Counted from the first letter of the stretch, positions 5,135 to 58,236 are shown. The stretch is 64,000 nt of DNA from Candidatus Schekmanbacteria bacterium (GCA_016219965.1 JACRJM010000003.1:318299-382298); one strand, 5' to 3'. Numbers and translations: made by a program. The notes: generated from the letters alone by a model not told the origin.

Positions 5135-6256
5135 TTACTTTACTTCAAGTTCCTTAAGCACCACCTGATAATCTTTCAATCCAAGTTTTTCTGAAGCTTC
5201 AGCGGGTATGAGTCTTTCAATAAGTCTTATCTTAAAATTGTCTGCATCCGGGCCTGGCTCGAAAGCAAAAATCTTGGTTGTTCCTGTCGGGAGCCTTGAA
5301 TCTCTCGCCACACTTTTCGCATCCCAGAAAAAATAGGTTTCCTTTCCATTGCCATCCAATAAGGTAATACCCATTTCCTCTGTCTTTTCAAATACGGTTT
5401 TGCCGCTTTTATCAAGGCCTTTAACTTCAAGAACAAGCCTTCTTAATCCATGGGCTGCACCCGGCAATTTATGTCCCACGCCATTGTTGGTTATACTGAC
5501 CAGAATTCTTTTAAGCTCTTTATTTGCTTCAAGCTTCATACCTGAAGCAAGAAGTTTCATTGCAGTACCGTCGGTATCCATTCCAAACGCTACTTTTTCC
5601 GGTCCATCAAAAGTATTCCTGAAATAAACTACTACTTTCCCCTCGTCTTTGATTGCATAGGGGCGCATGTGGCACTCCTGGCACTGCTTTGCCTCAGATG
5701 GAAACCTGAGATTCGTCCATTCCTCATATGTATTATCCACATCAATAATATCGTTGAATTTGTACTGATGGCATCCGGAACAAAACTCGCTTATAGTGTG
5801 AAACTCAGAATATCTCCCCTCGTGAACATTTGTCTCCGGATCTTTTAGGTTTCCAAGCTTGCCAAATCCCGCTTCATGTGCATAGGTTGAAAAATTCTTT
5901 CCGGGAATAAGCTTAGTCGCCGTATGACAGAAGTCGCAGGGGATCTGCTCCTTCGATGTTTCAAGGTCAAAGTTCATGTCCTTTTCAAGCACTGCGGCAG
6001 GCGCATGGCAGTATAGGCATTCGGTTTTAAGAATTGCAGGTGCATTGTCATAGAACTTCTTGAAAACAACATCGTTTATTCCAAGTATCATAGCGGATGT
6101 GCTCCATTCATTATACCTGTTGGAATGACACGAACTGCACGCAACTGATGGCTGGAAACCGGTCTCAGAGAAAACAGGAGTTACAACAATAAAAATCTGC
6201 AGGGCAAACAGGAACATCATCAGAAAACTATATCTCTTCTTCATCATCCCCTCCAA
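5135..6256 (-). CDS. Pentaheme c-type cytochrome, cytochrome c554-like
   Basis: 373-residue periplasmic multiheme cytochrome. An N-terminal signal peptide (KKRYSFLMMFLFALQIFIVV) precedes five CXXCH heme sites: CSSCH, CLYCH, CDFCH, CSGCH and CQECH, all within about the first 200 residues. The remaining ~170 residues have no heme site and read like a beta-sandwich (VSITNNGVGHKLPG..., LEVKGLDKSGKTVFEKTEEMG). The GHKLPG segment is familiar from c554-like cytochromes. It probably takes part in respiratory or extracellular electron transfer; substrate unknown. The start could be any of several Met codons in MEGMMKK. It lies directly downstream of the SPOR gene on the same strand (6 bp), so co-transcription is possible. 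Confidence 0.82.
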   Translation of the reverse strand: MEGMMKKRYSFLMMFLFALQIFIVVTPVFSETGFQPSVACSSCHSNRYNEWSTSAMILGINDVVFKKFYDNAPAILKTECLYCHAPAAVLEKDMNFDLETSKEQIPCDFCHTATKLIPGKNFSTYAHEAGFGKLGNLKDPETNVHEGRYSEFHTISEFCSGCHQYKFNDIIDVDNTYEEWTNLRFPSEAKQCQECHMRPYAIKDEGKVVVYFRNTFDGPEKVAFGMDTDGTAMKLLASGMKLEANKELKRILVSITNNGVGHKLPGAAHGLRRLVLEVKGLDKSGKTVFEKTEEMGITLLDGNGKETYFFWDAKSVARDSRLPTGTTKIFAFEPGPDADNFKIRLIERLIPAEASEKLGLKDYQVVLKELEVK

Positions 6257-15285: not shown

Positions 15286-16125
15286 TTATCCCTTGTATAT
15301 AACCGTCCCTACATTCTCACCTTCAAGTGCTCTGGTGATATTCCCCTTCTCAAGGCCGTTTATTACCTGAATTTTATTTATCACTTCGCTGTTATTTAAT
15401 ATTTCAAGACAGGGGCGCTCGACTATGAGGTCATCAAGATCTTTTGCCATAAGCTCAGACACTGTTATCTCGGAAATGAATTTCAACTTTTTATTCCCGG
15501 ATTTTTTCTTAGGGTCATCAGTATAAAGACCTTTTTCATCCTTAACGTATATGCAGCTTTTGGCCCCGATAAGGTCGGCTATTATGATGGCACCCACGTC
15601 TGTGCGGTGTAAAGGTATTCTGCCTTTTGCGGGAGGTATGGCAAAGTAATCATAAGGGGGCATGGCATGCATGACAGGAATGCAGTCCTGTGTGAAATAA
15701 TTAGGGAGCTTTACCACTTCATCATGATGAATCTTTATCCCGCCCCATGGAGAGAGAAGCGTTGCAAGTAGAAGTGCATTCTGCTCTGAAATGGAACTGC
15801 CAAACTTCGCAATTATGCCGGTCGGCATTCCAAGCTCAAGCCCAATGGAATAGATGTGACGGCTTCGGGTTCCCCCTCCTGTCATCAAAAGCATCCTGTG
15901 GTCATTCTTATTTGCGACAATCTCCCTTACAATTTGTGGAAGCGCCTGTGCGCCACGGTCACAAATAGACTGGCCGCCAATCTTTATGACATTAACATCA
16001 GGAAAGAATCTCTGCCGGGGTGCCATCTTAAGCCCATCAATTAATGATTTGCTTACAAGACTTTCTCCCATGAGCCTGCTTTTTACATGCAGCCTTTTGC
16101 CGTTCCTTTCACGTATCAGCGCCAT
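15286..16125 (-). CDS. Molybdenum storage protein (MoSto) subunit homologue, amino-acid-kinase fold
   Basis: About 279 residues. The sequence follows the MoSto alpha/beta subunits of Azotobacter closely along its length: LPD.TVIKIGGQS-like VNVIKIGGQSICDRGAQAL, LLMTGGGTRSRHIYSIGLELG, MPTGIIAKFGSS, AMPPYDYF.IPPAKGRIPLHRTD.GA, CIYVKDEKGLYTDDP, and QVINGLEKGNITRALEGENVGT. MoSto packs polyoxomolybdate or -tungstate clusters inside an ATP-driven cage. The related UMP kinase is less likely because the HRTD and PPY blocks are MoSto-like. I prefer the ATG at 16125 behind GAGGGG over the in-frame TTG three bases upstream. Only one subunit gene is present, so a homo-oligomer is possible. The small gene 16135-16353 lies just upstream. 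Confidence 0.78.
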   Translation of the reverse strand: MALIRERNGKRLHVKSRLMGESLVSKSLIDGLKMAPRQRFFPDVNVIKIGGQSICDRGAQALPQIVREIVANKNDHRMLLMTGGGTRSRHIYSIGLELGMPTGIIAKFGSSISEQNALLLATLLSPWGGIKIHHDEVVKLPNYFTQDCIPVMHAMPPYDYFAIPPAKGRIPLHRTDVGAIIIADLIGAKSCIYVKDEKGLYTDDPKKKSGNKKLKFISEITVSELMAKDLDDLIVERPCLEILNNSEVINKIQVINGLEKGNITRALEGENVGTVIYKG

Positions 16126-16134
16126 CAAATCCCC

Positions 16135-16353
16135 TCATTTTGCTTTCTTTTTTGCCTTCTTCCCTGAAACTACGCTTTTAAGATAAACTACTTTCGCCCC
16201 AACTGTATCCGCAATCTGTTCAAGCTCCTGTTTGCGAAGATGTTCAGCATGAATTTTAAGATCAACACCTGAGACAGCAATGAGTTTGTATCGCGGATGT
16301 TTTTCTTTTTCGCCAACCTTAGTTCTTTCCCGGCAAAATATATTACCAGCCAT
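16135..16353 (-). CDS. Small basic protein upstream of MoSto homologue, unknown function
   Basis: 72 residues starting MAGNIFCRERTKVGEKEKHP and ending in a lysine-rich tail (SGKKAKKKAK). The middle (YKLIAVSGVDLKIHAEHLRKQELEQIADTVGAKVVYLKSV) reads as an alternating strand-helix-strand fold. It has a strong ribosome binding site (AAAGGAGG), so it is a real gene. It lies 9 bp ahead of the MoSto start and must be co-transcribed with it. A role as an accessory or regulatory partner is only an inference from position. No family recognised. Confidence 0.65.
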   Translation of the reverse strand: MAGNIFCRERTKVGEKEKHPRYKLIAVSGVDLKIHAEHLRKQELEQIADTVGAKVVYLKSVVSGKKAKKKAK

Positions 16354-18852: not shown

Positions 18853-19025
18853 TTTCTTTCCCTTAAACTGCTTAACTCATTAGACAGATTTATGTTTGTA
18901 AGCTTGCCTTCGTGATACAGCTTCAAAATAACTGAGGCAACTTCCTTATCCACACCATCGATACTTTCAAGCTGAGAAAAGAACTCATCAAGTATCGCTT
19001 GCCCACTTTTTATGTCGTTTGTCAT
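18849..19025 (-). CDS. Small helical linker protein of the ATPase cassette
   Basis: 58 residues from MTNDIKSGQAILDEFF to LSNELSSLRERK, predicted helical and with no known family. Start ATG (19023-19025) overlaps the GIY-YIG stop as ATGA and follows a GGTGGGG-type binding site. Its own stop overlaps the ATPase start as ATGA. Such double coupling means fixed stoichiometry with both neighbours. It resembles in size and position the small middle component of three-component ABC-type defence systems; that comparison is inference. Confidence 0.6.
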   Translation of the reverse strand: MTNDIKSGQAILDEFFSQLESIDGVDKEVASVILKLYHEGKLTNINLSNELSSLRERK

Positions 19026-19489
19026 AGTGAACCCCACCTTTCAAAATACTTCCAGTCAATTTCAAGACTTACCAACACATCATGCTTTTTAATCTCAAAT
19101 CCGCTCTTGTTGTTGCAGATTGGGTAAACGCCGTATTTATCTAAAAAATCAAGAATAAAATAACTTTCTAAGTCTTCTACTCTGCGTTTCCATATCTGCT
19201 TCAGCATTTCAAAATTAAGATATGTAAAATAAAGTCCTTCTGTATTCTTATAATTAACAATACCTTCATTTCCAGATATACCCTCAAAGTGGTCAGAAAG
19301 TCTCTTCCCTATGCTATTTGTCTTTTTTTCGCTCATACCTATATAAATCAACCGTGATTTCTTGAAAGGATATGGAATTTCAGTCTCTCTCAAACAAATA
19401 AAATAAAGTCCGCATATCCCCATCAACGGCTTGATATTTCTCAATTCAAAATCTTGTTGCTTGTCAAAGTTGATTTTAAAAGTCTGCAT
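19022..19489 (-). CDS. GIY-YIG-type nuclease domain protein
   Basis: About 155 residues. The GIY-YIG core is visible as GLYFICLRETEIPYPFKKSR followed by LIYIGMSEKKTNSIGKRLSDHF: the first Tyr sits in GLY, the second in YIG, and the Arg is in GKRLSDHF. The family's catalytic Glu is probably the E of RRVEDLESYF, and the asparagine region is near YPICNNKSG. This fits a small site-specific endonuclease fold. I chose the ATG at 19487-19489, just after the upstream stop. A longer frame to 19540 overlaps the KTSC gene by 50 bases. It is coupled to the following gene by ATGA. Confidence 0.68.
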   Translation of the reverse strand: MQTFKINFDKQQDFELRNIKPLMGICGLYFICLRETEIPYPFKKSRLIYIGMSEKKTNSIGKRLSDHFEGISGNEGIVNYKNTEGLYFTYLNFEMLKQIWKRRVEDLESYFILDFLDKYGVYPICNNKSGFEIKKHDVLVSLEIDWKYFERWGSL

Positions 19490-19490
19490 A

Positions 19491-19706
19491 CTATCTGATT
19501 TTTTTAAAACTATAACCACCCTTTTTAATATAACCATCAAAGTATTTACCGTGAGATTCTGCGCCCATTAATCCATTGAACTCGGATTCTGGAACATTGA
19601 AATATTGGTAAATGCCTCCATTATGAAACTCAATTTCTAAAATAAAGTTGACCGGATCATAACCTACGGATGCAAGATTTGAAGATGAAACTGGTGTTCT
19701 ATTCAT
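19491..19706 (-). CDS. KTSC-domain protein
   Basis: 71 residues, a complete KTSC domain: VSSSNLASVGYDPVNFILEI, then EFHNGGIYQYFNVPESEFNG and AESHGKYFDGYIK. The HGKYF block is the family signature. KTSC is found alone and fused to lysyl-tRNA synthetases; its function is not established, though nucleic-acid binding has been proposed. A strong AGAGGAGG precedes the ATG. It heads the cassette KTSC, GIY-YIG, small protein, ATPase, and its promoter should lie in 19707-19900. Confidence 0.82.
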   Translation of the reverse strand: MNRTPVSSSNLASVGYDPVNFILEIEFHNGGIYQYFNVPESEFNGLMGAESHGKYFDGYIKKGGYSFKKIR

Positions 19707-20086: not shown

Positions 20087-20635
20087 TTATTTGATCAGCC
20101 GGTTTGCCTTTAATCTCTTAATGATCGGAGGGACAAGGGCAGAGCCTATGCCGCCGAAGAGTGCATGGGAAAATGCCATAATGGCGGCCTTCTGAAGCAC
20201 TATCTCAGTTTCCATACCAACGGCATATTCAATACCGGTTGTTGTAAGGGAACGGCCTGCTGATAAAAGAAGCCCTACTATGATGCTTGCAAGATAGCTC
20301 GTAGGGAACTGTGGATAGATCATCCCGGCTATGTCAACTATGATGGCAGGAAACAGGAATTTCACCATTGTCAAAGGCCCGCTTTTCCCCATACCTATCA
20401 ACACACTGACAATGCCTGATATTAATCCCACAAGCGTGGGTGCTCCGATTTTTGGAACGCATCCGCGTGCAAGTATCATGAAAAAAGCCATAAAAAGCAT
20501 CACATGGCCGGGGATCTTTAAATTGAGCATCAGCCCTGCACGAGTAATAACAATAAAAGTGGCACAAAAGGCGAGGAGTATCCCTTCGCGGAGTGTAAAC
20601 CTCTGCCAGAGTAAAAGCTTTTCTTCATTTGCCAT
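20087..20635 (-). CDS. ECF transporter S-component-like membrane protein
   Basis: About 182 residues with five or six hydrophobic segments: ILLAFCATFIVITRAGL, VMLFMAFFMILARG, LVGLISGIVSVLIGM, FLFPAIIVDIAGMIY, SYLASIIVGLLLSAG and IMAFSHALFGGIGSALV. Small size, six-helix shape and its place in an operon with EcfT and EcfA identify it as the substrate-binding S subunit. The ATG at 20635 directly follows the stop of the TiaS-like gene; an upstream extension would overlap that gene. The substrate cannot be read from the sequence. The operon's TonB receptor and the nearby MoSto homologue make a metal oxyanion or metal chelate a reasonable guess. Confidence 0.65.
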   Translation of the reverse strand: MANEEKLLLWQRFTLREGILLAFCATFIVITRAGLMLNLKIPGHVMLFMAFFMILARGCVPKIGAPTLVGLISGIVSVLIGMGKSGPLTMVKFLFPAIIVDIAGMIYPQFPTSYLASIIVGLLLSAGRSLTTTGIEYAVGMETEIVLQKAAIMAFSHALFGGIGSALVPPIIKRLKANRLIK

Positions 20636-20636
20636 A

Positions 20637-21344
20637 TCACACCCTTGTCTTGTCAGGGCGCCATGTCTCCCCGTCGCGTATGACATAGAACACTATCTCA
20701 CCGCCGTATAGTGATGGACGCACCCATCCGTCTGTTTCTATTATCTCATCATGGGGAAGAGACTTGCCATCAAGCGTAACAACCTTTTTTACATCGCTAG
20801 CACTGATTATATCTTTGACCGTTGCAGTACCTTCAATATCGCGTATGCCGTGAAGGTCTATGAAGCGGCCATCATCTCCTGTGCTTCTAAGTCCAACGCC
20901 TGCTATTGCCCCGATGCATCCCTGTCCTGTTTCCCCATACCACCAGAGATTAAGCCTCAGCTTCTCTGCAAGTGCCCTTGCCTCTTTAATGGTAAGCACC
21001 TCGCGCTTTGCACGGTAACCGAATGTGCGCAGTTCATCAGGAACAATCTTGTCCTCAATTACACATAAGCCGGGGTTTGCAGATTCATGGAAATTATTCA
21101 CGAGAAACTCCTGTGATGTCTTGAAGATATCATCAAGGTTTGAATCTGTAAAAGCCGCAATGCAGGAACAGCTGTTATGCGAGGTATATGGTATGTCAGG
21201 GTGAACAAGAAACTGGTGCCGTGTCACACTCATATTCTTTATCATCCCGAGGCGTGAAAGCTCTTTGCCGAGGTTGCGCGAGAGTCTTCCCGTACCTATA
21301 CTCTCAGTGTTGTCAGTGTCGTCAATGGCAATAAAAACGTTCAT
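20637..21344 (-). CDS. TiaS-like protein (IDDTDN ATP-binding domain) in an ECF operon
   Basis: 235 residues. The N-terminus FIAIDDTDNTESIGTGRLSR is the signature of archaeal TiaS (tRNA-Ile2 agmatidine synthetase) and its relatives. The GHN-like HNSCSCIAAF, WWYGETGQGCIGAIAGVG and REVLTIKEAR blocks follow. The zinc-ribbon and OB-fold RNA-binding parts of full TiaS are missing, so tRNA modification is unlikely. In bacteria such short homologues have no settled function. It is coupled to EcfT by ATGA and to the S component by an adjacent start, so it belongs to the transporter unit, perhaps as an ATP-dependent enzyme acting on the imported substrate (inference). Confidence 0.7.
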   Translation of the reverse strand: MNVFIAIDDTDNTESIGTGRLSRNLGKELSRLGMIKNMSVTRHQFLVHPDIPYTSHNSCSCIAAFTDSNLDDIFKTSQEFLVNNFHESANPGLCVIEDKIVPDELRTFGYRAKREVLTIKEARALAEKLRLNLWWYGETGQGCIGAIAGVGLRSTGDDGRFIDLHGIRDIEGTATVKDIISASDVKKVVTLDGKSLPHDEIIETDGWVRPSLYGGEIVFYVIRDGETWRPDKTRV

Positions 21345-22042
21345 TGGTTGTTCTCCTTAATATAAAGTGCTGTATCAAAATAGGTTCTTTCTTTTTTCAG
21401 GCCAAAAGCCCTTGCCTCGGCGGAAAGCGCCGCCTCTTCTGCTGTTTTAAAGGCGCGGACCATGAGCGGTATCATAAGGCAATGGAATAAATCACTCCAG
21501 TTTCCGGGGTTAGTGAGGTCGCGGGCTGAGAGCTTTGCCCCCCTAAGCCTCTGCGCCATGGATATCTCGCGAAGCTCCTTTGCGAATAATGGAAGGAACC
21601 TCATGCTCGTAAAGATAAGAAATGAAAGCCGGTAAGGCATTACCTTCCGCAAAGACTGCATCATCTCTGAAACCCGCGTAGTCCTTAGGAAAACTATTGC
21701 TGGGATGAACATCAAGATTACAGTAAGCGAAGACCTCAGGGCAGGCCAGAGAGCTGCCGGCATTTCAAAACGCAAGCTGTAAAGCCAGACAACAATAATG
21801 ACCTGTATGAAAAAATACTTGATATCCCTCCAAAGGTCATAGAGCGTAAGGCTTGCCAGGAAATAATAGAGCATGTTCAGCGCAAGCACAGCGGCAAATT
21901 GCCACGGCTCACGCGAGGAAATAGTAATTATGGATATAAGTGTGCCTATTAACAGTTTCCATCCTGCTCCGAGTCTGTGGATCGGGGAGTTTGCCTCCTT
22001 GTACTGGCATGCATAGTCGCTTGTCGTTTTTTTTCTATACAA
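21341..22042 (-). CDS. ECF transporter transmembrane (T) component
   Basis: EcfT-family membrane coupling subunit. Four to five hydrophobic segments (LLIGTLISIITIS, FAAVLALNMLYYFLASL, FIQVIIVVWLYSL, SLTVILMFIPAIVF, and a segment near MVRAFK) surround the coupling helices. Both cytoplasmic Ala-Arg-Gly motifs are recognisable: MAQRLRGA and, degenerate, AEARAFGL. These contact the ATPases. The frame is open far into the EcfA gene, so I place the start at the TTG at 22040-22042, eight bases inside the EcfA 3' end and behind GGAGAACGG. A start up to 22102 is formally possible. Confidence 0.75.
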   Translation of the reverse strand: MYRKKTTSDYACQYKEANSPIHRLGAGWKLLIGTLISIITISSREPWQFAAVLALNMLYYFLASLTLYDLWRDIKYFFIQVIIVVWLYSLRFEMPAALWPALRSSLTVILMFIPAIVFLRTTRVSEMMQSLRKVMPYRLSFLIFTSMRFLPLFAKELREISMAQRLRGAKLSARDLTNPGNWSDLFHCLMIPLMVRAFKTAEEAALSAEARAFGLKKERTYFDTALYIKENNQ

Positions 22043-23372
22043 TTTTACCGTTCTCCACTTTAAGTATCCTCTGCGCCCACCCTTGCTGGGGCAACGGGTC
22101 ATGGGATGCGATCACTATTGTCGTATTGTAAAGCGAAGATACTTCTGAAAGCACCCCTAAAAAGCGATGTCTCTGGCTAATGTCAAGCCCTGAAAAGGGT
22201 TCATCGAGCAATAGGACCTTTGGTTTGGGTGCAAGCACCGATGCAAGGGCAACCCTGTGCTGTTCACCGAAGCTCAGCATGAGAGGTGGCTTTTTAGCAA
22301 GATGGTCAACCTCGCAAACCGAGAGCACTTCTTCAACGCGTCTTTTAAGTTCTTCACCTGTCACCTTGAGTCTTTTGAGCGAAAAGGCAACCTCATCAAA
22401 AACAGTATTTTCAAAAAGCTGTCGTGTAGGATTCTGGAATAGAAAAGCGACTTTCCCGGGCAAATCCCTTGGTCTTGGATTATCAATGCCGGCAATGCTT
22501 ATGCGGCCTGAATCGGGTTTTGCTATTCCTGCAAGACATTTCAGAAACGTTGATTTTCCTGCTCCGTTTCTTCCATAAAGATGCACACGTTTCCCTTCGT
22601 TTATTACCAGATTTACTCCATTAAGCACTTCATTCATACCCGGGTAAGAGAGAGATATGTCTTCCGCGACAATGCTATGAGATTGAACATCAGAATTCTT
22701 TGTCGCTGGATGTTTTTCAACATTATCCTTTGCTATCGCTATATGAGCCATACTGTGAATCCGGTCTGCAACTTCTTTAAGCGGTGCAAGGTCATGCTCG
22801 GTTATGAGAAGGGCATGTCCGTTTTTCTTAAGGTTTTTTATAATTTCAACAAGTTCCTTTTTTCCCTCTCCATCAAGCTGGGAAGTCGGTTCATCAAGAA
22901 GGAGAAGAGTGGGTTCCATTGCAAGCACTGATGCAATAGCAAGGCGCTGTTTCTGTCCTGCCGACATACGCTCCACGTTTCGCGATACAAATCCGGAAAG
23001 TCCTACAGAGCTAAGGGAAGAGTCAATCCTTCTTCCTATCTCATCAGAGGGAATGCAGAGATTCTCCGGTCCGAAGGCAACTTCTTCTGCAACCGTAGTG
23101 CAGAGTATCTGGGATTCTACATTCTGGAAGACAAGCCCTACAGAGCTATGAGATGTTCCATTATCGCACCCTTCGGCATTCACCCTTATGGTTCCTTTAG
23201 AAGTGCCGCCCCGAAGGAGTCCTTTAATGGCAAGGAGTAATGTAGTTTTACCGCATCCTGAAGGACCTGTAAGACATACACATTCGCCGCTCTTTACAGA
23301 CAAAGACACGCCGTTGCATGCCCTGGTATTTTCCCCATCATATGAAAACTCGAAACAGTTTATATCAAGCAT
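22035..23372 (-). CDS. Fused double ATPase of ECF transporter (EcfA-EcfA')
   Basis: 445 residues containing two complete ABC domains in tandem. Domain 1: Walker A GPSGCGKTTLL, signature MSAGQKQRLAIAS, Walker B LLLLDEPTSQLD. Domain 2 (from about 230): Walker A GRNGAGKSTFL, Q-loop FLFQNPTRQLF, signature LSFGEQHRVALAS, Walker B VLLLDEPFSGLD. One polypeptide thus replaces the usual EcfA1/EcfA2 pair, as in YkoD-type transporters. It energises uptake through EcfT and the S component. It starts 10 bp after the TonB-receptor stop. Confidence 0.88.
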   Translation of the reverse strand: MLDINCFEFSYDGENTRACNGVSLSVKSGECVCLTGPSGCGKTTLLLAIKGLLRGGTSKGTIRVNAEGCDNGTSHSSVGLVFQNVESQILCTTVAEEVAFGPENLCIPSDEIGRRIDSSLSSVGLSGFVSRNVERMSAGQKQRLAIASVLAMEPTLLLLDEPTSQLDGEGKKELVEIIKNLKKNGHALLITEHDLAPLKEVADRIHSMAHIAIAKDNVEKHPATKNSDVQSHSIVAEDISLSYPGMNEVLNGVNLVINEGKRVHLYGRNGAGKSTFLKCLAGIAKPDSGRISIAGIDNPRPRDLPGKVAFLFQNPTRQLFENTVFDEVAFSLKRLKVTGEELKRRVEEVLSVCEVDHLAKKPPLMLSFGEQHRVALASVLAPKPKVLLLDEPFSGLDISQRHRFLGVLSEVSSLYNTTIVIASHDPLPQQGWAQRILKVENGKIV

Positions 23373-23382
23373 AGCTGATCCA

Positions 23383-25497
23383 TTAAATGCTCACCTTTAT
23401 TCCCCCATAGACAAATCTCCCTGCCTGAGGAATTCCATAACTCTCTACATAATTTTTGTCAAAGAGGTTGTCTGCACCAACATATATTGCCATTTTGCCG
23501 CCAAATACTTTTTGTGTGAGCTTCACATTTACCAAAGTGTAGTCGCTGATCTTCTTTTTCTTTACCGGAATGATGTTGGCCTTTGTAAGTGCGTGCTGGT
23601 TGGCAACATATAACAAAGAAACATAAGGTGTAAGTCCTATGGCCGAGCTATAGTTTCCTTCAAGTGTGAATTTATCCCTTGGACGATATTGAATCCTGTG
23701 CATTCCCAGCGGTTGTGGATGGGCAATATTTTCTGCGTTTAAATATGAGTATGTCCCTCTTAAGATGAGGCTCTCTACAGGCCGGGACTGTGCCACAAGC
23801 TCATATCCCATGAAACGGTATTTTTCCTTGTTTTCGAATCTCTGCGTGAACACCTTATCCTTTTCAATAAAACCTTTTGTGTCAGTGAGAAACCCTGTAA
23901 TGCTTGCTGAGCTGTTTAAAGGAAGTTTCTGCTCTACACCGACTTCATACTGGTAAGCCCTCTCTGCCGTAAGTCCAAGGTTGCCTTTTGATGAATCGAA
24001 AAACTGACTTACCGAGGGAAAACGGATTTTTCTTGAGAATGATGCCTTAAGACGTGTCCCGCTGACCATATCATAATGAACTCCGGCAAGCATGCTGTAG
24101 TCATTGTCATTATCATCTCTTTTTACAGGCGGAATGTTTCTTCCAAATGAAAAGTCATACTTTGATTTAAACGATTTTCCATCCTTATTGAGCCAGTGAC
24201 GTCCGTAACTTAACACAAAACCAAGATTTTCAAGCGGAGAGAATTCATATTCAAGAACTGCTGTATAGAGGTTTATGCCTCCTGTAAGCTCACCGGGCAA
24301 ACCTCCTCCCCCTTCATCACCGCCACCCCCGAGAAGAAGTGTAGAATTAGCATGGGCTTTGTCTCTTTCAAAAGAAAGCCCAAGAGTTATAAGCCCTGCT
24401 TTTTCAAGGTCGTATTGTGTTTGAAGAGCTGCCCCCCATGACTTCATTCTGTTTACCGCATGATTTTCAGCTGGCGTGACAGACCTTGGATTAAGGTTGA
24501 TACTTGTCCTTTTTTCATCAGCCTTGTTAAAGAAAACCCAGGACCTGAACTTAAGCGGTCCCGGGACATCATAATCTCCTGCCAGCTGAACAGAATAATC
24601 CCTTAAATTATTAACACGGTCTTTTTTAGGGCTTTCTGCAAAAGGGTCTGTTAGATTTAAATAATCTAAAATAGCGATGCCTGGGATGCCGTATCTGTTT
24701 TCAGTAAATGCGAAATTCAACCCAATGTTTAGTTCATTTGTTGGAGAGTAACCAATATTGGCGAAGAAATTATCAGTTTTCTTATCGCTATTTTCCCTTA
24801 ACCCCCCATTTTCAATAGGTGATTCTTCAAAATCATCAGAAAGGGGGAAACCCCGTCTTTTATATGTACTCCCGCTGATAAAATAATAAAACTTGTCGCT
24901 CGCTCCTGATATGCTTCCGCGGGCAAGGTACATTCTTTCACTTCCCCGCTCTACCACAGCATCAGCATGGACTCCATGGGTTCCCTTTTTTGTAATAATG
25001 TTTATAGCTCCTCCTATTCCCCCCTGACCATAAAGCAAGGAACTGTTGCCTACTGAAACCTTTATCTTCGCAATGTTCTCAACCGGTATCGCGGAGGGGT
25101 CAAACATCTGGTCATAGGTTGAGTTAAAAGGGACACCATCAACGAGAAGCAGAACATGTCTTGTCCTGAATCCTCTTATATCTAAGCGCGGAACACCTTC
25201 TCCCCGGGTGCCAAGCATAATACCCGGAACAAGGTCTATTGCTTCGTCAAGTGACCTTGCATTGGACTGCTCTATCTCCTGTGCTGTAATTTCGTAGACT
25301 GTTCCTGTTGCCTCAACACCATGTCCTTCTCCAGTTACTATAACTTCACCGAGTTCGTAAATCTGTTCCGGTTCTTCAGCAAAGGAAGGAGCTGACAGCG
25401 CCTGAAAAAAAATAATCAGGAAAAATGATACTGCCAGTATAAAAAAATTTTTTAAATTCATATAAACACTTTCAGATTTATTTTTTTTATTTTTCAT
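23383..25497 (-). CDS. TonB-dependent outer-membrane receptor
   Basis: 704 residues. After a signal peptide (FFILAVSFFLIIFFQALSA) comes a TonB-box-like ELGEVIVTGEG. The plug domain reads SLDEAIDLVPGIMLG, RLDIRGFRTRHVLLLVDGVP and SSLLYGQGGIGGAINIITKKG. A ~520-residue beta barrel follows, ending in an aromatic-terminated strand (RFVYGGIKVSI). The receptor imports a scarce substrate across the outer membrane. Start ATG overlaps the cytochrome stop (ATGA). The second Met (MNLKNFF) would give a shorter signal peptide and is also possible. Its ligand is not identifiable, but direct coupling to an ECF importer implies the two share it. Confidence 0.92.
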   Translation of the reverse strand: MKNKKNKSESVYMNLKNFFILAVSFFLIIFFQALSAPSFAEEPEQIYELGEVIVTGEGHGVEATGTVYEITAQEIEQSNARSLDEAIDLVPGIMLGTRGEGVPRLDIRGFRTRHVLLLVDGVPFNSTYDQMFDPSAIPVENIAKIKVSVGNSSLLYGQGGIGGAINIITKKGTHGVHADAVVERGSERMYLARGSISGASDKFYYFISGSTYKRRGFPLSDDFEESPIENGGLRENSDKKTDNFFANIGYSPTNELNIGLNFAFTENRYGIPGIAILDYLNLTDPFAESPKKDRVNNLRDYSVQLAGDYDVPGPLKFRSWVFFNKADEKRTSINLNPRSVTPAENHAVNRMKSWGAALQTQYDLEKAGLITLGLSFERDKAHANSTLLLGGGGDEGGGGLPGELTGGINLYTAVLEYEFSPLENLGFVLSYGRHWLNKDGKSFKSKYDFSFGRNIPPVKRDDNDNDYSMLAGVHYDMVSGTRLKASFSRKIRFPSVSQFFDSSKGNLGLTAERAYQYEVGVEQKLPLNSSASITGFLTDTKGFIEKDKVFTQRFENKEKYRFMGYELVAQSRPVESLILRGTYSYLNAENIAHPQPLGMHRIQYRPRDKFTLEGNYSSAIGLTPYVSLLYVANQHALTKANIIPVKKKKISDYTLVNVKLTQKVFGGKMAIYVGADNLFDKNYVESYGIPQAGRFVYGGIKVSI

Positions 25498-26216
25498 TGA
25501 TCACCGAGGCAGATCACACCATAATTTCCGATGGCATTATTTTTAACAGCAAGATATATGGCTGTTATCTGTTTCTTCGTAAGATATCCCTTATAGGAAG
25601 GCATATCTATTCCATCCTGACCTTTTTTTCCTTTTAAAGTGCCTTTAATAAACTCGCTCTTTGTCAAATCATAGATAGGAATCCTGTTTCCACGTCCACC
25701 ATGGCAGTCAAAACATACATACTGCTCACACTCATTCCCCGGCACTTTAAAAGACACATAATCTCTCCATCCCTGAGTGATTTTGCTGCTGCACCCTGTT
25801 GCAGCCTCTATTTTAGACGCACGCTTGGCAGCGAGCCTTCCGCCTCCGCCGCCTCCACCATTGCCGTCAGGAGGACCAATGCCGCAGATCTTTTCAGGAT
25901 AGTGAAGAGCAAGGTAGATGTTTGTTATCTGTGTTTTGGTCAATGTCTTTTTGAACTTCGGCGAGGTGCCGTAACTGTCACTTTTCCCATTAACAGTGTA
26001 TTTAACGAAGTCTTTTTTTGAAACTGAGATAAGCGCGGGGAATATCTTGTTTCCTGAACCGCCGTGGCAGGGAGTACAGTTAATCAGATAATTTTCCCAA
26101 CCTTCTGTTATTGCCTTGCTGGTGCCTGCCTCAACGATATTCATGGCAACCACTTCACTAATCACACATACCAAACCAATCAATAAAAAGAACCGGATTG
26201 CTGATAATCTTTTCAT
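25494..26216 (-). CDS. Diheme c-type cytochrome
   Basis: 240-residue exported cytochrome. Signal peptide (FFLLIGLVCVISEVVAM) followed by two homologous cytochrome-c units, each with one heme site: CTPCHGGSGNKIFP and CFDCHGGRGNRIP. Each unit ends in a matching block (KKTLTKTQITNIYLALHYP and SYKGYLTKKQITAIYLAVKN). A Met in DGIDMPSYKG is a likely axial ligand of the second heme. The units are joined by a Gly-rich linker. Coupled by 4-base overlaps to both neighbours. Its presence in a TonB-ECF operon suggests a redox step, such as metal reduction before uptake (inference). Confidence 0.85.
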   Translation of the reverse strand: MKRLSAIRFFLLIGLVCVISEVVAMNIVEAGTSKAITEGWENYLINCTPCHGGSGNKIFPALISVSKKDFVKYTVNGKSDSYGTSPKFKKTLTKTQITNIYLALHYPEKICGIGPPDGNGGGGGGGRLAAKRASKIEAATGCSSKITQGWRDYVSFKVPGNECEQYVCFDCHGGRGNRIPIYDLTKSEFIKGTLKGKKGQDGIDMPSYKGYLTKKQITAIYLAVKNNAIGNYGVICLGDQ

Positions 26217-28519
26217 TTCACTTTTCCTTTTAGTGTCTTAATGTTGCTCTTGCCGTATATGGTGCTGACTCTTAATGTAATCTTTTTCTTCTTCACCTTA
26301 TCAAGGCTCAAAATAATGGTATCATCAGTCCAGACAACTATGCTCATCTTTGCGCCGGTCACTATAATATCCCCTTCAACCGGTCCAAAACTGCGGCCAT
26401 AGAGAAGGATCTCACTTCCTTTTTTAACTGTTGATTTTGAAACTTTATTTATCTTTGACTTTAATGGTTTGTTATAGGTAAACGCAGCGCCATTTTCGGA
26501 CTTGTCACCATCTGAAGTTGCAACATATATGAACACTGCACCCGGTGTAACTCCCCATGGAATTGCTATCTTTATTTCCGTATCGCTCCATGATGAAACA
26601 TCGCATTCAGTTTCAACCTCACCAGACAATATTGTCACTTTCCCTATAACGCCTCCAAAACCGCTCCCGCTTATTGTAAGCTCATCCGCATATGTACCGG
26701 CATCACTGCTTAAAGACGTTATCTCAGGCAAGGCCCCTGTCTGTTCAACAACATAATCTTCCCCTGCAATGGTTATATGTCCTGTCCTCGGGTTCCTGTC
26801 TATATTGGCTGACAGCGAATAGCTTACTGTTCCGAAGCCGCTTCCATTTCCTCCAGACGTAATAGTTATCCATGAGGATGAGCTTTGCTCTACTTCAGTA
26901 TTCCATGCGCAGCTTTCTTCTGCGGTTATATCAACTGAACCATCGCCGCCATGGGAGTCAAACTCATCTGCATCTTTTGAGAGAATAAAAATACATGCAC
27001 TCCCTTCCTGCGTTACCGTAAAGACCTGACCAGCTATGGTCATAGTCCCAATACGCTGGTCAAAACTAATATTTGGAGATACCGTGAAACTCACAACCCC
27101 TTCGCCTGTGCCATTGTTCCCTGAGGCGATTGTTATCCAGCCAGCACCTTCTTCATCCACAGAAGAAGACCATGCGCACTCGCTGTAAGATGTAACAGTT
27201 ACTGCTCCTTCTCCGCCGTTATAACTGAAAGATTCTTCATCTTGTGAAATGGTATAGGTACAGACAACCTGTCCGCTCTGAGTTACGGAATAGCTATGTC
27301 CTGCTATGGTTATAGTCCCGCTTCGCAGATTTGTTGTTTCATTTGCAAAAACTGTGTAGGTCACTACGCCATTACCTATTCCGCTCACTCCGGAACTTAT
27401 GGTTATCCAGCCGATGCTGCCCTCATCTACCGCTGCCGTCCAGTCGCATTCGCTGTCAGCGGTGACATTGATCGAACCTGTGCCTCCGCTGTCATCAAAA
27501 GATTTGCCTTCAGGTAATATTGAATAGTTACATTCAAGTGTTGAAGTTAATGGTATCCCCCAGTCTGACACGAAATAATTGAAACCGTCATTCTTGGGGC
27601 TGATGGTCACTCTCCCTGAACCATCCGACACGCTTGAGAACATCTTTTTCTGGGTGTTATTTTTCCCGCTTCTTGTGAATGCAACCATTGATGTGTCCGG
27701 AGACCATTTTGGAAGTTCATTCTGCTGGGAAGGAAAATCGCCGTCAATCGATAAAGAATAAGTAATAGTGGTTTCCGGATCTATAGTTACTATATTGTGT
27801 CCTGAGCTGAATATTATAGTCTGCGAAGGAGCCCAGTCCGGCGCAGTCTTGTTGGTAGCCTCACTACAGCACGAGTCGGTAAGCTTAATATTTCCCGAAC
27901 CATCAGCATTGATTATATAGAGCTCATTTGAATAGACTTCCTCTGTTTCCCTGTGACAGTAAACAATCTTTGCTCCGTCAGGCGAGAAGCTTGGATCATA
28001 GTTATATCCGCCGGTAGTAAGTTTGGTAAGAGTGCTTCCATTCAAATCCACTGTGTAAATGTCATATTGATTTGCTGTCCCCATGCTGAAAGCAAGCTTT
28101 GTCCCGTTGGGAGACCATGCCAAACCTCCCGGAGATGTATATCCCTCGGAAAAAGCATATATACTCCTCACATCGCTGCCGTCAGACTTCATGAGTTTCA
28201 GTGCATTAGCTACGTTGTCAATAAAAGCGATCTTAGCTCCCTTTGGAGAAAGAACCGGGGCGCTGTTGCTTGTACTGTTCGTGTTGTCATTTAGACTTAT
28301 AAGCTCGGTACCGTCTTCGTTCATTTCCCATATCTCACCCCACTTGTCCTCAGGGTAAGAGAGAGTCTTGGGAGTTACGAGATCATCTATGTTGCGGACG
28401 TAAATGACTTTGCCTGCTGCATCTGAAGTTTCAGGATTTCCTGAAACCAGAAGAATCAGGATAAGCCATGTAAAGCATAACCCTAATGCCCGCCGCATGT
28501 TGATAGTTTTCATAATCAT
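26213..28519 (-). CDS. Exported beta-propeller / BACON / IPT multidomain protein
   Basis: 768 residues. Signal peptide (LGLCFTWLILILLVSG) then a TolB/PD40-like propeller (SPKGAKIAFIDN, SPNGTKLAFSMG, SFSPDGAKIVYCHR repeats, to about 320). Three BACON domains follow, each starting with a Cys (CNYSIL, CTYTIS, CIFILS) and containing W-(S/I/T)-T(I)-T-S-G and VTQ-G blocks. Two IPT/TIG immunoglobulin-like domains close the protein. BACON domains are linked to carbohydrate or mucin binding and surface proteins. It is likely an extracytoplasmic binding or scaffolding protein of the TonB operon. No catalytic motif seen. Confidence 0.78.
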   Translation of the reverse strand: MIMKTINMRRALGLCFTWLILILLVSGNPETSDAAGKVIYVRNIDDLVTPKTLSYPEDKWGEIWEMNEDGTELISLNDNTNSTSNSAPVLSPKGAKIAFIDNVANALKLMKSDGSDVRSIYAFSEGYTSPGGLAWSPNGTKLAFSMGTANQYDIYTVDLNGSTLTKLTTGGYNYDPSFSPDGAKIVYCHRETEEVYSNELYIINADGSGNIKLTDSCCSEATNKTAPDWAPSQTIIFSSGHNIVTIDPETTITYSLSIDGDFPSQQNELPKWSPDTSMVAFTRSGKNNTQKKMFSSVSDGSGRVTISPKNDGFNYFVSDWGIPLTSTLECNYSILPEGKSFDDSGGTGSINVTADSECDWTAAVDEGSIGWITISSGVSGIGNGVVTYTVFANETTNLRSGTITIAGHSYSVTQSGQVVCTYTISQDEESFSYNGGEGAVTVTSYSECAWSSSVDEEGAGWITIASGNNGTGEGVVSFTVSPNISFDQRIGTMTIAGQVFTVTQEGSACIFILSKDADEFDSHGGDGSVDITAEESCAWNTEVEQSSSSWITITSGGNGSGFGTVSYSLSANIDRNPRTGHITIAGEDYVVEQTGALPEITSLSSDAGTYADELTISGSGFGGVIGKVTILSGEVETECDVSSWSDTEIKIAIPWGVTPGAVFIYVATSDGDKSENGAAFTYNKPLKSKINKVSKSTVKKGSEILLYGRSFGPVEGDIIVTGAKMSIVVWTDDTIILSLDKVKKKKITLRVSTIYGKSNIKTLKGKVK

Positions 28520-28535
28520 AGTTGCAGGTTTCTTT

Positions 28536-31500
28536 TTAGTCTGTCACCCAGAGCTCAGCCGGCGGAAGTGATATGCTGGTTACATTTTCACCTACACCCC
28601 AGTTTGATGCAGTTGTCCCAAGCGCTCCCCTTGAAAGTCCGCTAAAGCCCGGCTTGTCAATATTGTCGCCTGAAGAATGAGATGCGGATGAAGTCTTGTT
28701 ATATCCTCTGAGCGGAGTCCTAAGCTCACTACCATTGACAATGGAATCATACATTATCTCCTCGTCGCCTATGAGGATTACATTTGGACCGGTTGTCTTT
28801 GACGAAGACAACTGGGATGTATCACCGGTAAGTACAATGCTGTATGTCACACCGCTTGAACCGTCTGCCGCAGCAGCCGGACGTGTTGTCCTGTAAATAG
28901 GAGTTCCTATATTATGGTTAATGGCTCCTACCCAGTCCGGAGAGCTCCCTGCTTTTCCCCTGAGCAGAGGTGTTAAAGTGCTTCCGCTGGACATGGTGTA
29001 TTCAATTACCTCCCCGTCCATTACAATTGCTCCCGAGATAGGGTCAAGCCCGAGGTTGGCGGGCTCGTCACTTAAAACAAGATTGGATGCATTGGCAAAA
29101 AATGTCTTCCCAAGATAGCCGTTATTTGCAGGAAGACTTCCCCCAAGAGTAGCGCCTGTGTCTGTTACCCTGTTGTTAGTGTAACTGACTTTTTCATAAT
29201 ATATATCGCCTGCATTTACAGGATTTGAATGAGTGTTTGCTTCAAGGAGCAATGTTCCCGACTGCGGAAAAACAACAGACGGGACTGTAAATGTATTGGT
29301 GACCGGAGTATCGTAAAAAGCTGTGTCCGATGTGGCAATTCCCACCTTCTCTGTTGGTCTTGATTCAACAGCATCTGAAAATACCATCCTGCTTCCGCCG
29401 GCATATAACTTTCCCCCTGAGGAAACAAAGGTCCTGACAAAAAGATTATTGTCTCCAAAACCATCAGTAGTCACAGTCATCCAGTTTACGCCATCCGCAG
29501 TCCTGTAGATTCTGCATCCAGTATTAACCATACTTGAAGGGGCTGCTGCCACATAGAGCCAGCCATCATGTTGTCCGGGAAAAAGCGTAAGCTCATCTTT
29601 ACCGTTGACATCAAGGGGATTTGCCGGGTCAATCCCTGTATCAAATCCTGCATAGGAAGGATTGGGCAATAAAATGGTCCCGCCTCTGTTCAGCCCGCCC
29701 GCTGATGTTGGAAAAGGAAAGCTTGTTCCTGCGCCACCTGCCTGATTGTAGGTAAAGCTGTCCATACGGCGGACCCAATCGCTGTCGCTTGTCTTGTTTG
29801 CTACTCCCTTGTCATTGGAAATATTTATCAGAGAAAGTATTTCTCCTCCTTCTCCCGGATACTGGGCAACTCCCGGAACCTTATTCGCTGCAAAGACCCA
29901 AAGCTGCTGTTGACTGCCAGCCGCGCCTTCGCTGGAAGGAGAAAAAACTGAAAAAGTAGCCGTAGAATTTCCGCTTTCACCAAGCCCTCTTTCGTTTGCG
30001 CCGCTTACGAGATAAACCTGGTCTGAAGTTGATGGAGTAAAGGCAGGCCCGCCATGAAATACTGTGACCAGGTCATTTGAAGCATTGCTGTCTATGATGC
30101 TGACATTTGTATATATTGCACTGCCATGCTTTATCTGCATATACCTATGGGCATACTGATGGGGAAGGAATGCGGTCCCGCTTCCGCGGATCTTGTAGCA
30201 ATTGTCGCCATATGCTGAAACAGTTGTGACACTGCGCAGTGTGTCATCGCCAAATGCCGTTGTATCAACACTTCCTGCCGCAAGAACCCAGTCGCTTTCC
30301 AAGCGTCCACCGCCGCCGCCGACTTTTGTATCAGCTATGTAAAACGTTAATCCCAGTTTTACAGCATCGCCTATCTTTCCAACAAATCCATGAGTGGCGC
30401 TACCGATAACAAGACTTCCTCCGCCAAGGATCGTTGAACCAACTGGTTTTGAAACAGCGCTTGCATCGTTTATACCTGTATCCTTGAAGGCATCGGTCAT
30501 AACCCAGGACCATGAACCTGAATCTCCGGTTATTGAATAAGCGAGATTACCGTCAGCTTTGCTCCCTGCATATGCTCTTCCGGCGCCGGACTCAAGGCTT
30601 CCTGCAAAAAGGCTTCCGTCAAATTCGAAAAGGTTGTTTATACCGTCTGAATCAGTGTCCTGAAATACGCTTGTCCATGAAGAGCCGTTATATCTCCATA
30701 TCTCGCCGCCGCTGTTTATCGGTGTTTCAAGACCTGCAGCATTGTTGGATTTGCCTGTGCCAACATAAAGTTTGCTGTCATAAACAAACTGCTGGCCGCC
30801 CATGTTATTGAATATCTTATTATATGCTGCCTCCGAGCCGCCCCATCCGTCACTGTTTATCTGTGTGAATGAACCTGATGTCGGGTCATACTCCCAGTGC
30901 TCGGCGCCTTTTCTTGCATTAGAATTTTCATTGCGGTCTGTGTGGTCATTCTTTCCCAATACTGCGTAGATCTTTCCATTGAACGATGCCAGAGACGGGA
31001 AGAAAATATTATCAGCGTTGTCTGTGTTGTCCTCTCCATTGCTGTCCCAGTTGAATCCGGTTGGCGCCCCGGGGCCTGCTATCTGGTGCCAGTTGTCAGC
31101 ATAAATAGAACCTCTGAAATTAAAACTTGTTGCATTGGGATCAGCAAACTGCCACTGTATTGGCGAACCTGTAGCGCCCGGGGCTATTTTTTCTCCGCCC
31201 GGGGCATGGTCAAAATATGCCAACCCAGAAGGATCGTAACCATACTCATTATAAACTGAAACATCAGACGGTGTAATAGTTTCTATCACAGCGTATGCTG
31301 CATACAAAGTATCTGTAGTATGGTTTGTTATGGTAACATTTCCTGAAAATATTAAATTAAGGCTGTCCCAGGTTGCCCCGGTGCTTGCTACTGTTACATG
31401 AGGGATCGAGTTATTTTCCGGGTATATTTTTGCATTGCGTCTTCTTGGGCGGGAATTATCATCTACTTTAAAAGTAATTGTTCCGGAAGACGGATCAACA

Positions 31501-31682
31501 CTTCCTGTGAAAGTGGCAATAGGCGTTTGTTTGGTTGATTTGCCGGAGCTACTGGAAATCTTTGGAGTTCCAGAGGAATCACTGCTTCCGCTTCCACCGC
31601 CGCCGCATCCGGCAATTATAAAGGCAAACATGAAACAGAAAAAAAGCACATTCAGCTTAAATATTATTTTCCATTTATCCAT
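28536..31682 (-). CDS. Large surface lipoprotein, first gene of the TonB-ECF operon
   Basis: 1048 residues. Signal peptide with lipobox FIIAGC followed by a Gly/Ser linker (GGGGSGSSDSSG), so lipid-anchored in the outer membrane. Residues about 45-180 form a beta-rich domain. The middle (about 200-480 and 560-780) has kelch-like repeats such as SFNGKIYAVLGKN, YDSKLYVGTGKS, EFDGSLFAGSLES and SGGKLYAGGSRM. The C-terminal third is Ser/Gly-rich with no known domain. Binding site GGAG precedes the ATG. No peptidase or hydrolase motif seen. Probable surface binding protein that feeds the TonB receptor (inference). Confidence 0.75.
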   Translation of the reverse strand: MDKWKIIFKLNVLFFCFMFAFIIAGCGGGGSGSSDSSGTPKISSSSGKSTKQTPIATFTGSVDPSSGTITFKVDDNSRPRRRNAKIYPENNSIPHVTVASTGATWDSLNLIFSGNVTITNHTTDTLYAAYAVIETITPSDVSVYNEYGYDPSGLAYFDHAPGGEKIAPGATGSPIQWQFADPNATSFNFRGSIYADNWHQIAGPGAPTGFNWDSNGEDNTDNADNIFFPSLASFNGKIYAVLGKNDHTDRNENSNARKGAEHWEYDPTSGSFTQINSDGWGGSEAAYNKIFNNMGGQQFVYDSKLYVGTGKSNNAAGLETPINSGGEIWRYNGSSWTSVFQDTDSDGINNLFEFDGSLFAGSLESGAGRAYAGSKADGNLAYSITGDSGSWSWVMTDAFKDTGINDASAVSKPVGSTILGGGSLVIGSATHGFVGKIGDAVKLGLTFYIADTKVGGGGGRLESDWVLAAGSVDTTAFGDDTLRSVTTVSAYGDNCYKIRGSGTAFLPHQYAHRYMQIKHGSAIYTNVSIIDSNASNDLVTVFHGGPAFTPSTSDQVYLVSGANERGLGESGNSTATFSVFSPSSEGAAGSQQQLWVFAANKVPGVAQYPGEGGEILSLINISNDKGVANKTSDSDWVRRMDSFTYNQAGGAGTSFPFPTSAGGLNRGGTILLPNPSYAGFDTGIDPANPLDVNGKDELTLFPGQHDGWLYVAAAPSSMVNTGCRIYRTADGVNWMTVTTDGFGDNNLFVRTFVSSGGKLYAGGSRMVFSDAVESRPTEKVGIATSDTAFYDTPVTNTFTVPSVVFPQSGTLLLEANTHSNPVNAGDIYYEKVSYTNNRVTDTGATLGGSLPANNGYLGKTFFANASNLVLSDEPANLGLDPISGAIVMDGEVIEYTMSSGSTLTPLLRGKAGSSPDWVGAINHNIGTPIYRTTRPAAAADGSSGVTYSIVLTGDTSQLSSSKTTGPNVILIGDEEIMYDSIVNGSELRTPLRGYNKTSSASHSSGDNIDKPGFSGLSRGALGTTASNWGVGENVTSISLPPAELWVTD

Positions 31683-31906: not shown

Positions 31907-31960
31907 AATCTGTTTTTATTATTTCTTACCCTTTATTCTCTCAATCCCCATGCCGCTAAA

Positions 31961-32055
31961 AGTTCCTGGCAGATCCGGTTCTGCAGGCGAAAAGCATTTT
32001 TTTGACGCTGTTAGCCACTCGAAGGGGGATGCAGAACCGGATACCAGCCAGAACT
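31961..32055 (-). ncRNA. Structured leader RNA, copy 1
   Basis: A long bulged stem closes a junction. Pairing arms: AGTTC/GAACT, TGGC/GCCA, and a 13-bp perfect ATCCGGTTCTGCA (31973-31985) with its complement at 32030-32042. The enclosed 44 bases carry TTGACGCTGTTA (32002-32013) and TCGAAGGGGG (32019-32028), both shared with copy 2 at 33007-33105. It lies 55 bases upstream of the small gene at 31739-31906. A second TGGGGAT (minus strand, 31944-31950) could pair with the ATCCCC inside the junction. I matched it to no known riboswitch class from memory. Confidence 0.55.
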
Positions 32056-32141: not shown

Positions 32142-32948
32142 TTATTTAACTATTAATTTCCTCACACCCGCGACGGCAAACCCTGCCAGTAAAAGAAGAA
32201 ACGTTGAAGGTTCAGGAACCGCCGGAGCCTCAACGCCAGCAAATCTTGGATCAGTAATATTTATTCCATATTGAAAATATACATTGGATATAGAACTTAA
32301 ATTGAATCCACCCGACAGACTGCCCAGGGTGAATATCGCTGAATTCTGTATTAGTGCATTGGCTCCTTTAACGTCTGTAGATCCGGTAAGAGGGTTGTCC
32401 AATAACGATGTTATACCATATTGCAATTTGCCAGGACCAGCTTCACCCTGCAAGTTGCCTGGAGTAAATAATGATGAAGTCCCACCGCCTGGCCATGTGC
32501 TAAACACTCCACCGTAGGCGGCGCTTAAAATAGCTTCATTTACAGTTGAAGTTGGACTTAGATATCCGGCAAGGCCATTTCTGTATCCCCATTCCTCGCC
32601 CACAGATCCAACCGGAGTTGGACCTGTTCCTGAGGGATTACCTGCCGGCGGGAACATAACAGTTGATCCCGGAGCAATGACGGCAGATGTTTTTGAAAAG
32701 AGCGGGTCTCCTGCAACTTCGAAAAACAACCCTGTTAACACACCAGCCTGTGATAAGACATCAGAGCTGGAAGTATTGGTCAGAGTCACCAGCAGATTTC
32801 CACCCGATATATTAAATGTCGCACTTGCACCAAGAGATCCTGAAGATCCATTGTAAATTAACGGGTTTGCTTCTGCCGGAATTGTAATCATGGCAAGCAT
32901 GATTAACAGTCCGCATATTCCTGCAACTAATGATCCTCTAATCTTCAT
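32142..32948 (-). CDS. PEP-CTERM sorting-domain protein
   Basis: 268 residues. Signal peptide (GICGLLIMLAMITIPAEA), a beta-rich body of no known enzyme family (FNISGGNLLVTLTNTSSSDV), then a typical PEP-CTERM tail: AVPEPSTFLLLLAGFAVAGV and a basic end RKLIVK. PEP-CTERM proteins are processed by exosortase at the inner membrane and released to the cell surface or matrix. Exosortase is not in this window. AGGAGG precedes the ATG. Leader RNA copy 2 and a Moco-like riboswitch with terminator lie upstream, so expression is probably controlled by transcript leaders. Confidence 0.85.
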   Translation of the reverse strand: MKIRGSLVAGICGLLIMLAMITIPAEANPLIYNGSSGSLGASATFNISGGNLLVTLTNTSSSDVLSQAGVLTGLFFEVAGDPLFSKTSAVIAPGSTVMFPPAGNPSGTGPTPVGSVGEEWGYRNGLAGYLSPTSTVNEAILSAAYGGVFSTWPGGGTSSLFTPGNLQGEAGPGKLQYGITSLLDNPLTGSTDVKGANALIQNSAIFTLGSLSGGFNLSSISNVYFQYGINITDPRFAGVEAPAVPEPSTFLLLLAGFAVAGVRKLIVK

Positions 32949-33006: not shown

Positions 33007-33105
33007 AATTTCAGGTTTTGCTCAGGTCCTCAAAGAAACGACATCCACGTTGATGCCATTAAAGCCTTCGAAGGGGGCTATGAGGACCGTGAGCTTACCT
33101 GAATT
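33007..33105 (-). ncRNA. Structured leader RNA, copy 2
   Basis: Same plan as copy 1 with different bases in the stems, i.e. covariation: CAGGT/ACCTG, GCTCA/TGAGC, and GGTCCTCA (33025-33032) with TGAGGACC (33081-33088). The junction holds TTGATGCCATTA (33050-33061) and TCGAAGGGGG (33068-33077), at 17-18 base spacing in both copies. It lies 59 bases upstream of the PEP-CTERM start. Position and conservation suggest a cis-acting regulatory RNA transcribed with the minus-strand genes. The sense strand is inferred from gene direction. Confidence 0.55.
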
Positions 33106-33134: not shown

Positions 33135-33172
33135 AAAAAAGAAAAGCCGGTTCCCTTTCTAAGGTACCGGCT
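33135..33172 (-). terminator. Intrinsic terminator downstream of the Moco-like element
   Basis: On the minus strand AGCCGGTACC pairs with GGAACCGGCT across a short loop and is followed by TTTTCTTTTTT. It stands 18 bases after the riboswitch-like element, as expected for an expression platform. It may also end hisS transcripts. Confidence 0.8.
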
Positions 33173-33189
33173 AAATTGATATGTCCATT

Positions 33190-58183: not shown

Positions 58184-58236
58184 GTAGTTCAATTTTTTGA
58201 TATCTTATAATTTTTTTGAACAGGTGGGTGGGGATA

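Follow-up and report, generated by a model that had tools for sequence, protein, structure and literature searches.

A 64,000-nucleotide stretch of the genome of a Candidatus Schekmanbacteria bacterium (GCA_016219965.1 JACRJM010000003.1:318299-382298; hereafter the window) contains an eight-gene operon that raises the question of what is taken up by a system joining a TonB-dependent outer-membrane receptor to an energy-coupling factor (ECF) importer, and of what a small relative of TiaS, the tRNA-Ile2 agmatidine synthetase, does in its company. The sequence-only reading of the locus did not name a cargo. The riboswitch and the neighbouring genes described here indicate molybdenum or tungsten (Mo/W). 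The operon is very probably a dedicated Mo/W uptake system, and we consider it likely that the whole is best explained as a riboswitch-controlled TonB-ECF importer of Mo/W together with an ATP-dependent enzyme that acts on the imported metal or its ligand.

A scan of window positions 15000-38000 against all Rfam families gave a single match above its gathering score, the molybdenum cofactor (Moco) riboswitch RF01055, which is directly followed by a terminator-like hairpin that a simple consensus terminator scan missed on account of an internal bulge. The riboswitch is 232 nt from the gene of a PEP-CTERM protein, and this gene is 459 bp from the lipoprotein gene that begins the operon. According to a covariance-model search the 3.58-Mb genome has two such riboswitches, the other being directly upstream of tupA in the operon of the tungstate importer TupABC. 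Across 168 nt that take in the terminator, the leader in the window and that of tupA agree at 77%, and the tupA aptamer is the closest to the window copy within the compared set. Two further hairpins, one in the leader and one upstream of the lipoprotein gene, both resemble one shared run of tupA codons, in the present genome as well as in a related one (G003). Each of these fragments sits in a strong stem and is probably a degenerated copy of the tup leader; the idea that the two leaders hold a new structured RNA was rejected, the hairpins being trapped tupA-like coding fragments. The simplest history would be a duplication of the tup leader onto the operon, and we count the shared leader as independent, local evidence tying the operon to the tungstate importer. 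The proteins of the two systems are unrelated; TupABC is an ABC importer of type I that uses a soluble binding protein. We infer that the cofactor represses the operon through this leader. Presence of the P3 stem marks Moco aptamers and its absence marks tungsten cofactor (Tuco) aptamers (Regulski 2008, PMC2408646); by eye, P3 is a short, small stem of 3-4 bp in the window aptamer and has weaker wobble pairs in the tupA aptamer.

Relatives of the TiaS-like gene repeatedly show the same association. Full-length relatives were detected by tblastn on plasmids in haloarchaea, where they adjoin an iron-type ABC importer, and in a Pimelobacter record that also holds matches to the profile of the S-component family of the window. 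When 84,980 species genomes were searched with an alignment of these, 433 relatives were found, in methanogens, haloarchaea, relatives of Geobacter, Clostridia, Bacillus and Bacteroidales, and the best 80 of the 433 were examined. The resulting set of 84 loci includes the window; many are metagenome bins, and the names of protein clusters rest on representative members. At least one Mo/W marker is present in 46 of the 84 loci, with genes for molybdenum storage protein (MoSto) in 12, ModE in 5, MoaA in 7 and MoeA in 7. Moco riboswitches occur in 27 loci, and in at least 21 the riboswitch heads a same-strand run containing the TiaS-like gene. The covariance model R1 was built from 20 riboswitches, all of which RF01055 itself had found (the window copy and 19 others), and part of the set later recovered with R1 had served to train it. 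In a matched control of 12 whole genomes, 18 of the 111 riboswitches fall inside TiaS-like loci, which make up about 0.4% of that sequence.

The importers encoded beside the TiaS-like gene are of several kinds. A functional link between this gene and the ECF genes had been proposed from the window alone, with a neighbourhood check fixed beforehand as its refutation test; the link withstood this test, ECF genes being found in 36 of the 84 loci, MolBCA/FecBCD-like genes in 26 and tupA in 17. TonB receptors accompany 17 loci, 15 of them of the ECF type and none of the MolBCA type, and the proposal that such a receptor feeds an ECF importer, giving uptake from the cell surface to the cytoplasm, is supported. 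A FecB-type binding protein family is present in 25 loci, and the member tested, from Neobacillus (L075), has as its best PDB match HI_1472 (E 1.4e-30), which we take to be MolA, the molybdate/tungstate binding protein of H. influenzae. The class II ABC importer MolBCA of Haemophilus (HI1470-1472) thus supplies the closest solved relative of this neighbour; unlike it, the window encodes an ECF importer, and we know of no TiaS-like partner of MolBCA. A maximum-likelihood tree built from 86 TiaS-like proteins requires 15 changes of the ECF label, of which supported branches force at least 10, and 12 of the MolBCA label, of which they force at least 8; judged from this tree, the importer type has been swapped at least 8-10 times. 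The TiaS-like enzyme therefore tracks the cargo and not one transporter.

Several small proteins were also observed in these neighbourhoods. A four-cysteine protein (C-[YF]-N-C-R-[FLY]-R-R-W...C) adjoins the TiaS-like gene in 28 of the 84 loci, e.g. L075:10760-11005 and L012:10729-10983, and is a candidate metal carrier; it is absent from the window, and the member tested has no Pfam or NCBIfam family. Secreted Big_5-domain proteins (cluster 4, 18 loci), possibly surface metal-binding proteins, adjoin Mo/W importers, and one of them (L136:3012-3503, genome C2) is inside the tup operon of the present genome. Small secreted proteins are encoded directly upstream of the TiaS-like gene at L046:1854-2327, L051:9392-9997 and L085:3530-3979, one of them with a weak match to a molybdopterin-binding domain.

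The gene order, common strand and tight coupling described from the sequence were borne out by open reading frame calls, measured spacings and domain scans. All eight genes are on the minus strand (20087-31682) in the order lipoprotein, BACON protein, diheme cytochrome, TonB receptor, fused EcfA, EcfT, TiaS-like protein and S component. The lipoprotein and BACON genes are 16 bp apart and the TonB receptor and EcfA genes 10 bp apart; overlaps of 4 bp join the BACON protein to the cytochrome, the cytochrome to the TonB receptor, and EcfT to the TiaS-like protein. Two of the original starts need revision: for the S component 20635, 1 bp past the TiaS-like gene, is more likely than 20686, and for EcfT the call at 22102, which overlaps EcfA by 68 bp, is probably too far upstream, the true start lying further downstream. 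The transcription unit extends beyond the eight genes, with the riboswitch and the PEP-CTERM gene upstream and a 72-residue protein gene and a MoSto gene downstream (Table 1). The lipoprotein, BACON protein and cytochrome have no relative in the other 83 TiaS-like loci and are not conserved partners of the TiaS-like gene, and the redox step that had been postulated is accordingly not supported as a conserved one.

Table 1. Features of the operon and its flanks (window coordinates).
Feature	Position	Strand	Basis or remark
Moco (molybdenum/tungsten cofactor) riboswitch aptamer RF01055	33180..33301	-	60.1 bits, gathering score 36, E 2.2e-12, model 1-135/135
Intrinsic-terminator-like hairpin and T run (expression platform)	33141..33175	-	dG -16.4 kcal/mol, z -4.5; directly 3' of aptamer
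Decayed tupA-like fragment within leader hairpin	33018..33105	-	similarity to tupA codons
PEP-CTERM protein gene	32142..32948	-	first gene 3' of riboswitch
Second tupA-like hairpin fragment	31960..32055	-	5' of lipoprotein gene; similarity to tupA codons
Lipoprotein, 1048 aa	28536..31682	-	lineage-specific here
PD40 propeller, BACON and IPT/TIG protein	26213..28519	-	domain scan; lineage-specific here
Diheme cytochrome c	25494..26216	-	two C-x-x-C-H heme motifs; lineage-specific here
TonB-dependent outer-membrane receptor	23383..25497	-	plug and barrel domains; proposed Mo/W-species receptor
Fused EcfA-EcfA' ATPase	22035..23372	-	two ABC_tran stretches; NCBIfam ECF_ATPase_1 340.6 bits, cut-off 315
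EcfT, CbiQ family	21341..22102	-	PF02361 6.3e-15
TiaS-like protein	20637..21344	-	free-standing TCKD-type ATP domain, own C-terminal part
ECF S component, motif PGH	20087..20635	-	fold model; proposed Mo/W-species specific
72-aa 'FVRER' protein	16135..16353	-	cluster 11; accompanies MoSto genes in other loci
MoSto homologue	15286..16128	-	PDB 2ogx chain B, E 3e-63

The operon has both EcfT and two ABC ATPase domains, as an ECF transporter should. The membrane protein at 20087-20635, which had been proposed as the S component, is confirmed in that fold by its AlphaFold2 (AF2) model, with six predicted membrane helices (pLDDT 88.1, pTM 0.84) and YkoE, ThiT, RibU and PanT as top Foldseek matches (TM ~0.6-0.68; E < 0.001 for the first only). 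Neither Pfam nor NCBIfam has a model for its sequence family, which shows no kinship to the solved S families; the family is found in 31 of the 84 loci, and a Gly-His pair (PGH) is almost invariant across it. The system thus shares with CbiMNQO, BioMNY, ThiT, RibU and LhaSTA the S fold, the CbiQ-type T protein, the paired ATPases and a module encoded with its own S component (the group I layout), but differs from them in its new S family, Moco riboswitch control, TonB receptor, TiaS-like partner and proposed Mo/W cargo.

The TiaS-like protein has 235 residues and its AF2 model, from an alignment that left out one haloarchaeal row (GTG start), has a pLDDT of 94.6. The top nine Foldseek matches are all TiaS, with the structural match confined to the TCKD (residues 1-154, 2.4 Å over ~156 columns). 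The TCKD match is weak in Pfam, but the NCBIfam TiaS match has an E value of 6e-17; the NF040849 score is 61 bits against a cut-off of 600. The IDDTD motif, Thr18, Arg42 and Asn57 are common to the family and TiaS, whereas His43 and His56 are kept in the family and missing from the aligned TiaS sequences. The tRNA-binding C-terminal domains of TiaS (~420 residues) are missing, the PDB matches stopping at residue 154, and the protein has a C-terminal part of its own as well as a Mo/W context. It looks like an ATP-using TCKD enzyme but is not a TiaS, because IDDTD and Thr18 are shared and the tRNA-binding parts are absent. Methanogenesis marker protein 11 (TIGR03280) shares the TCKD region but differs in length and N-terminus, and the window protein scores 57.3 bits against its cut-off of 255.8. 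Since the ATP site of the TCKD is kept, the ATP-dependent processing step of the sequence-only reading is plausible; chances are about even that the enzyme acts on the imported species or its ligand. Tandem TiaS-like paralogues were noted in relatives of Syntrophomonas (L071:9998-12313, L049:6181-8452, L044:10001-11506), where one copy lacks the TD of IDDTD and keeps the Arg-His and His-Asn motifs.

The enzyme might instead serve to sense or regulate Mo/W status, for instance through its phospho-threonine, or might modify tRNA or another RNA, which would leave the transporter reading unchanged. The TCKD of TiaS is a dual protein/RNA kinase, as cited in PMC11938285; such a role would suit a gene that tracks the cargo and is at times found away from importer genes or in tandem copies. 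The absence of the tRNA-binding domains, the tight coupling to importer genes and the lack of any known nucleic-acid target speak against it, and we think it rather unlikely.

The main rival on the cargo is salvage of molybdopterin, or of an organic pterin formed by its breakdown, through the ECF and TonB components, with the TiaS-like enzyme re-phosphorylating the pterin. S components are mostly vitamin carriers, the nearest folds serve thiamin/hydroxymethylpyrimidine and riboflavin, and a Moco riboswitch is compatible with salvage; TCKD kinases act on a heterocycle, TiaS activating a pyrimidine carbonyl, and in Foldseek the TiaS-like model weakly resembles the pterin kinase HPPK (E ~0.01). 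Yet the neighbours handle metal (MoSto, TupABC, the MolA-like binding protein), and the C-terminal domain of MoaA is matched in 22 of the 27 genomes tested (two weakly), which therefore probably make their own pterin; one of the five genomes without such a match has a short MoaA in its TiaS-like locus. Pterin salvage is improbable. Absence of MoaA proved a blurred test for salvage, the Pfam domain missing short MoaA variants. Such variants, of 263-266 residues, were seen in Planctomycetota (L060:6223-7014, L076:2708-3508), and the copy in the L060 genome was missed by the Mob_synth_C search. Import of cobalamin or another cobalt or iron complex through a BtuB-like receptor, with the Mo/W signals incidental, is most improbable and was rejected on riboswitch class and gene context: the TonB receptor does score against B12 and siderophore receptor models and EcfT is of the CbiQ family, but the BtuB score is 108 against a cut-off of 836, the S component has no sequence kinship with solved families, searches of window positions 15000-38000 and of 22 TiaS-like loci yielded no cobalamin riboswitch, and the Mo/W context recurs in relatives.

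The riboswitch, terminator, gene identities, folds and conserved association with Mo/W genes are established as far as sequence analysis can do so. Several points nevertheless weigh against a Mo/W importer with a dedicated enzyme. From evidence of the same kind we infer the cargo and, most of all, what the TiaS-like enzyme does. As many as 38 of the 84 loci have none of the counted Mo/W markers, although short contigs are among them and the count did not include the MolA-like binding protein, and the TiaS-like gene is absent from the three other genomes of this phylum examined. The riboswitch is 1.5 kb upstream of the lipoprotein gene, and because the PEP-CTERM gene and the 459-bp gap intervene, an internal promoter could drive the genes beyond. 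The genome also encodes TupABC and a second, Mo-type ABC importer, and the operon is not the sole route; the notion that the ECF system is the only Mo/W importer was rejected for this reason. An extra importer of different build suggests that the metal is taken up in another chemical form or with higher affinity, and TonB-dependent uptake would fit both. Demand may be sought in the 13 AFOR_N proteins (the tungsten aldehyde oxidoreductase family) and about nine PF00384 oxidoreductases that the genome encodes. Two candidate genomes lacking all Mod and Tup permeases (from L024 and L074) were set aside as proof of cargo, one being a small assembly and the other having only a weak MoaA match and one PF00384 match.

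Downstream of the S component, the MoSto protein is a clear homologue of the Azotobacter storage protein, matching MosA/MosB in sequence, but its gene belongs to an uptake neighbourhood, and the genome is rich in homologues of tungsten enzymes. A gene pair (window 16426-19540) with a GC content of 0.32 versus 0.45 separates the S component from the FVRER-MoSto pair. It encodes an SMC/LmuB-like ATPase and a protein with a weak GIY-YIG match, is probably an insertion and resembles one of the defence type. Elsewhere in the window are a multiheme cytochrome (c554/MtrC-like, 5135-6256, minus strand) with no link to the operon and, by eye, two tandem PEP-CTERM-like paralogues (57359-59058).

The Mo/W importer may be pictured as follows. 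When Mo/W cofactor is ample the aptamer would be bound and the terminator would halt transcription; when it is scarce the operon would be transcribed. The TonB receptor would then carry a scarce Mo/W species, an oxyanion or a complex, over the outer membrane, and passage over the inner membrane would be the work of the S component together with EcfT and the fused EcfAA' ATPase. Once in the cytoplasm, the species or its ligand would be acted on by the TiaS-like TCKD enzyme at the expense of ATP, and the metal would pass to MoSto for storage and to Moco and Tuco enzymes. In the open-access literature we found no precedent for Mo/W with ECF transporters, TonB with MoSto or TiaS with molybdenum; subscription papers were outside the search and an earlier description is possible.

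More tentatively, and with somewhat less than even confidence, we propose that the short TiaS-like proteins form a new class of ATP-dependent enzymes that process newly imported Mo/W species, for example by activating the metal or by releasing it from a thio-complex or chelate, for several unrelated importer types, including a hitherto unrecognised TonB-fed ECF importer of Mo/W. The locus offers a testable cargo, regulator and set of partners for an enzyme without an assigned reaction. If the proposal is true, ECF transporters would gain a Mo/W route and Mo/W uptake a TonB step, the widespread TiaS-like family would have its first cellular role beyond tRNA modification, and it would be explained how anaerobes rich in tungsten and molybdenum enzymes may obtain these rare metals.

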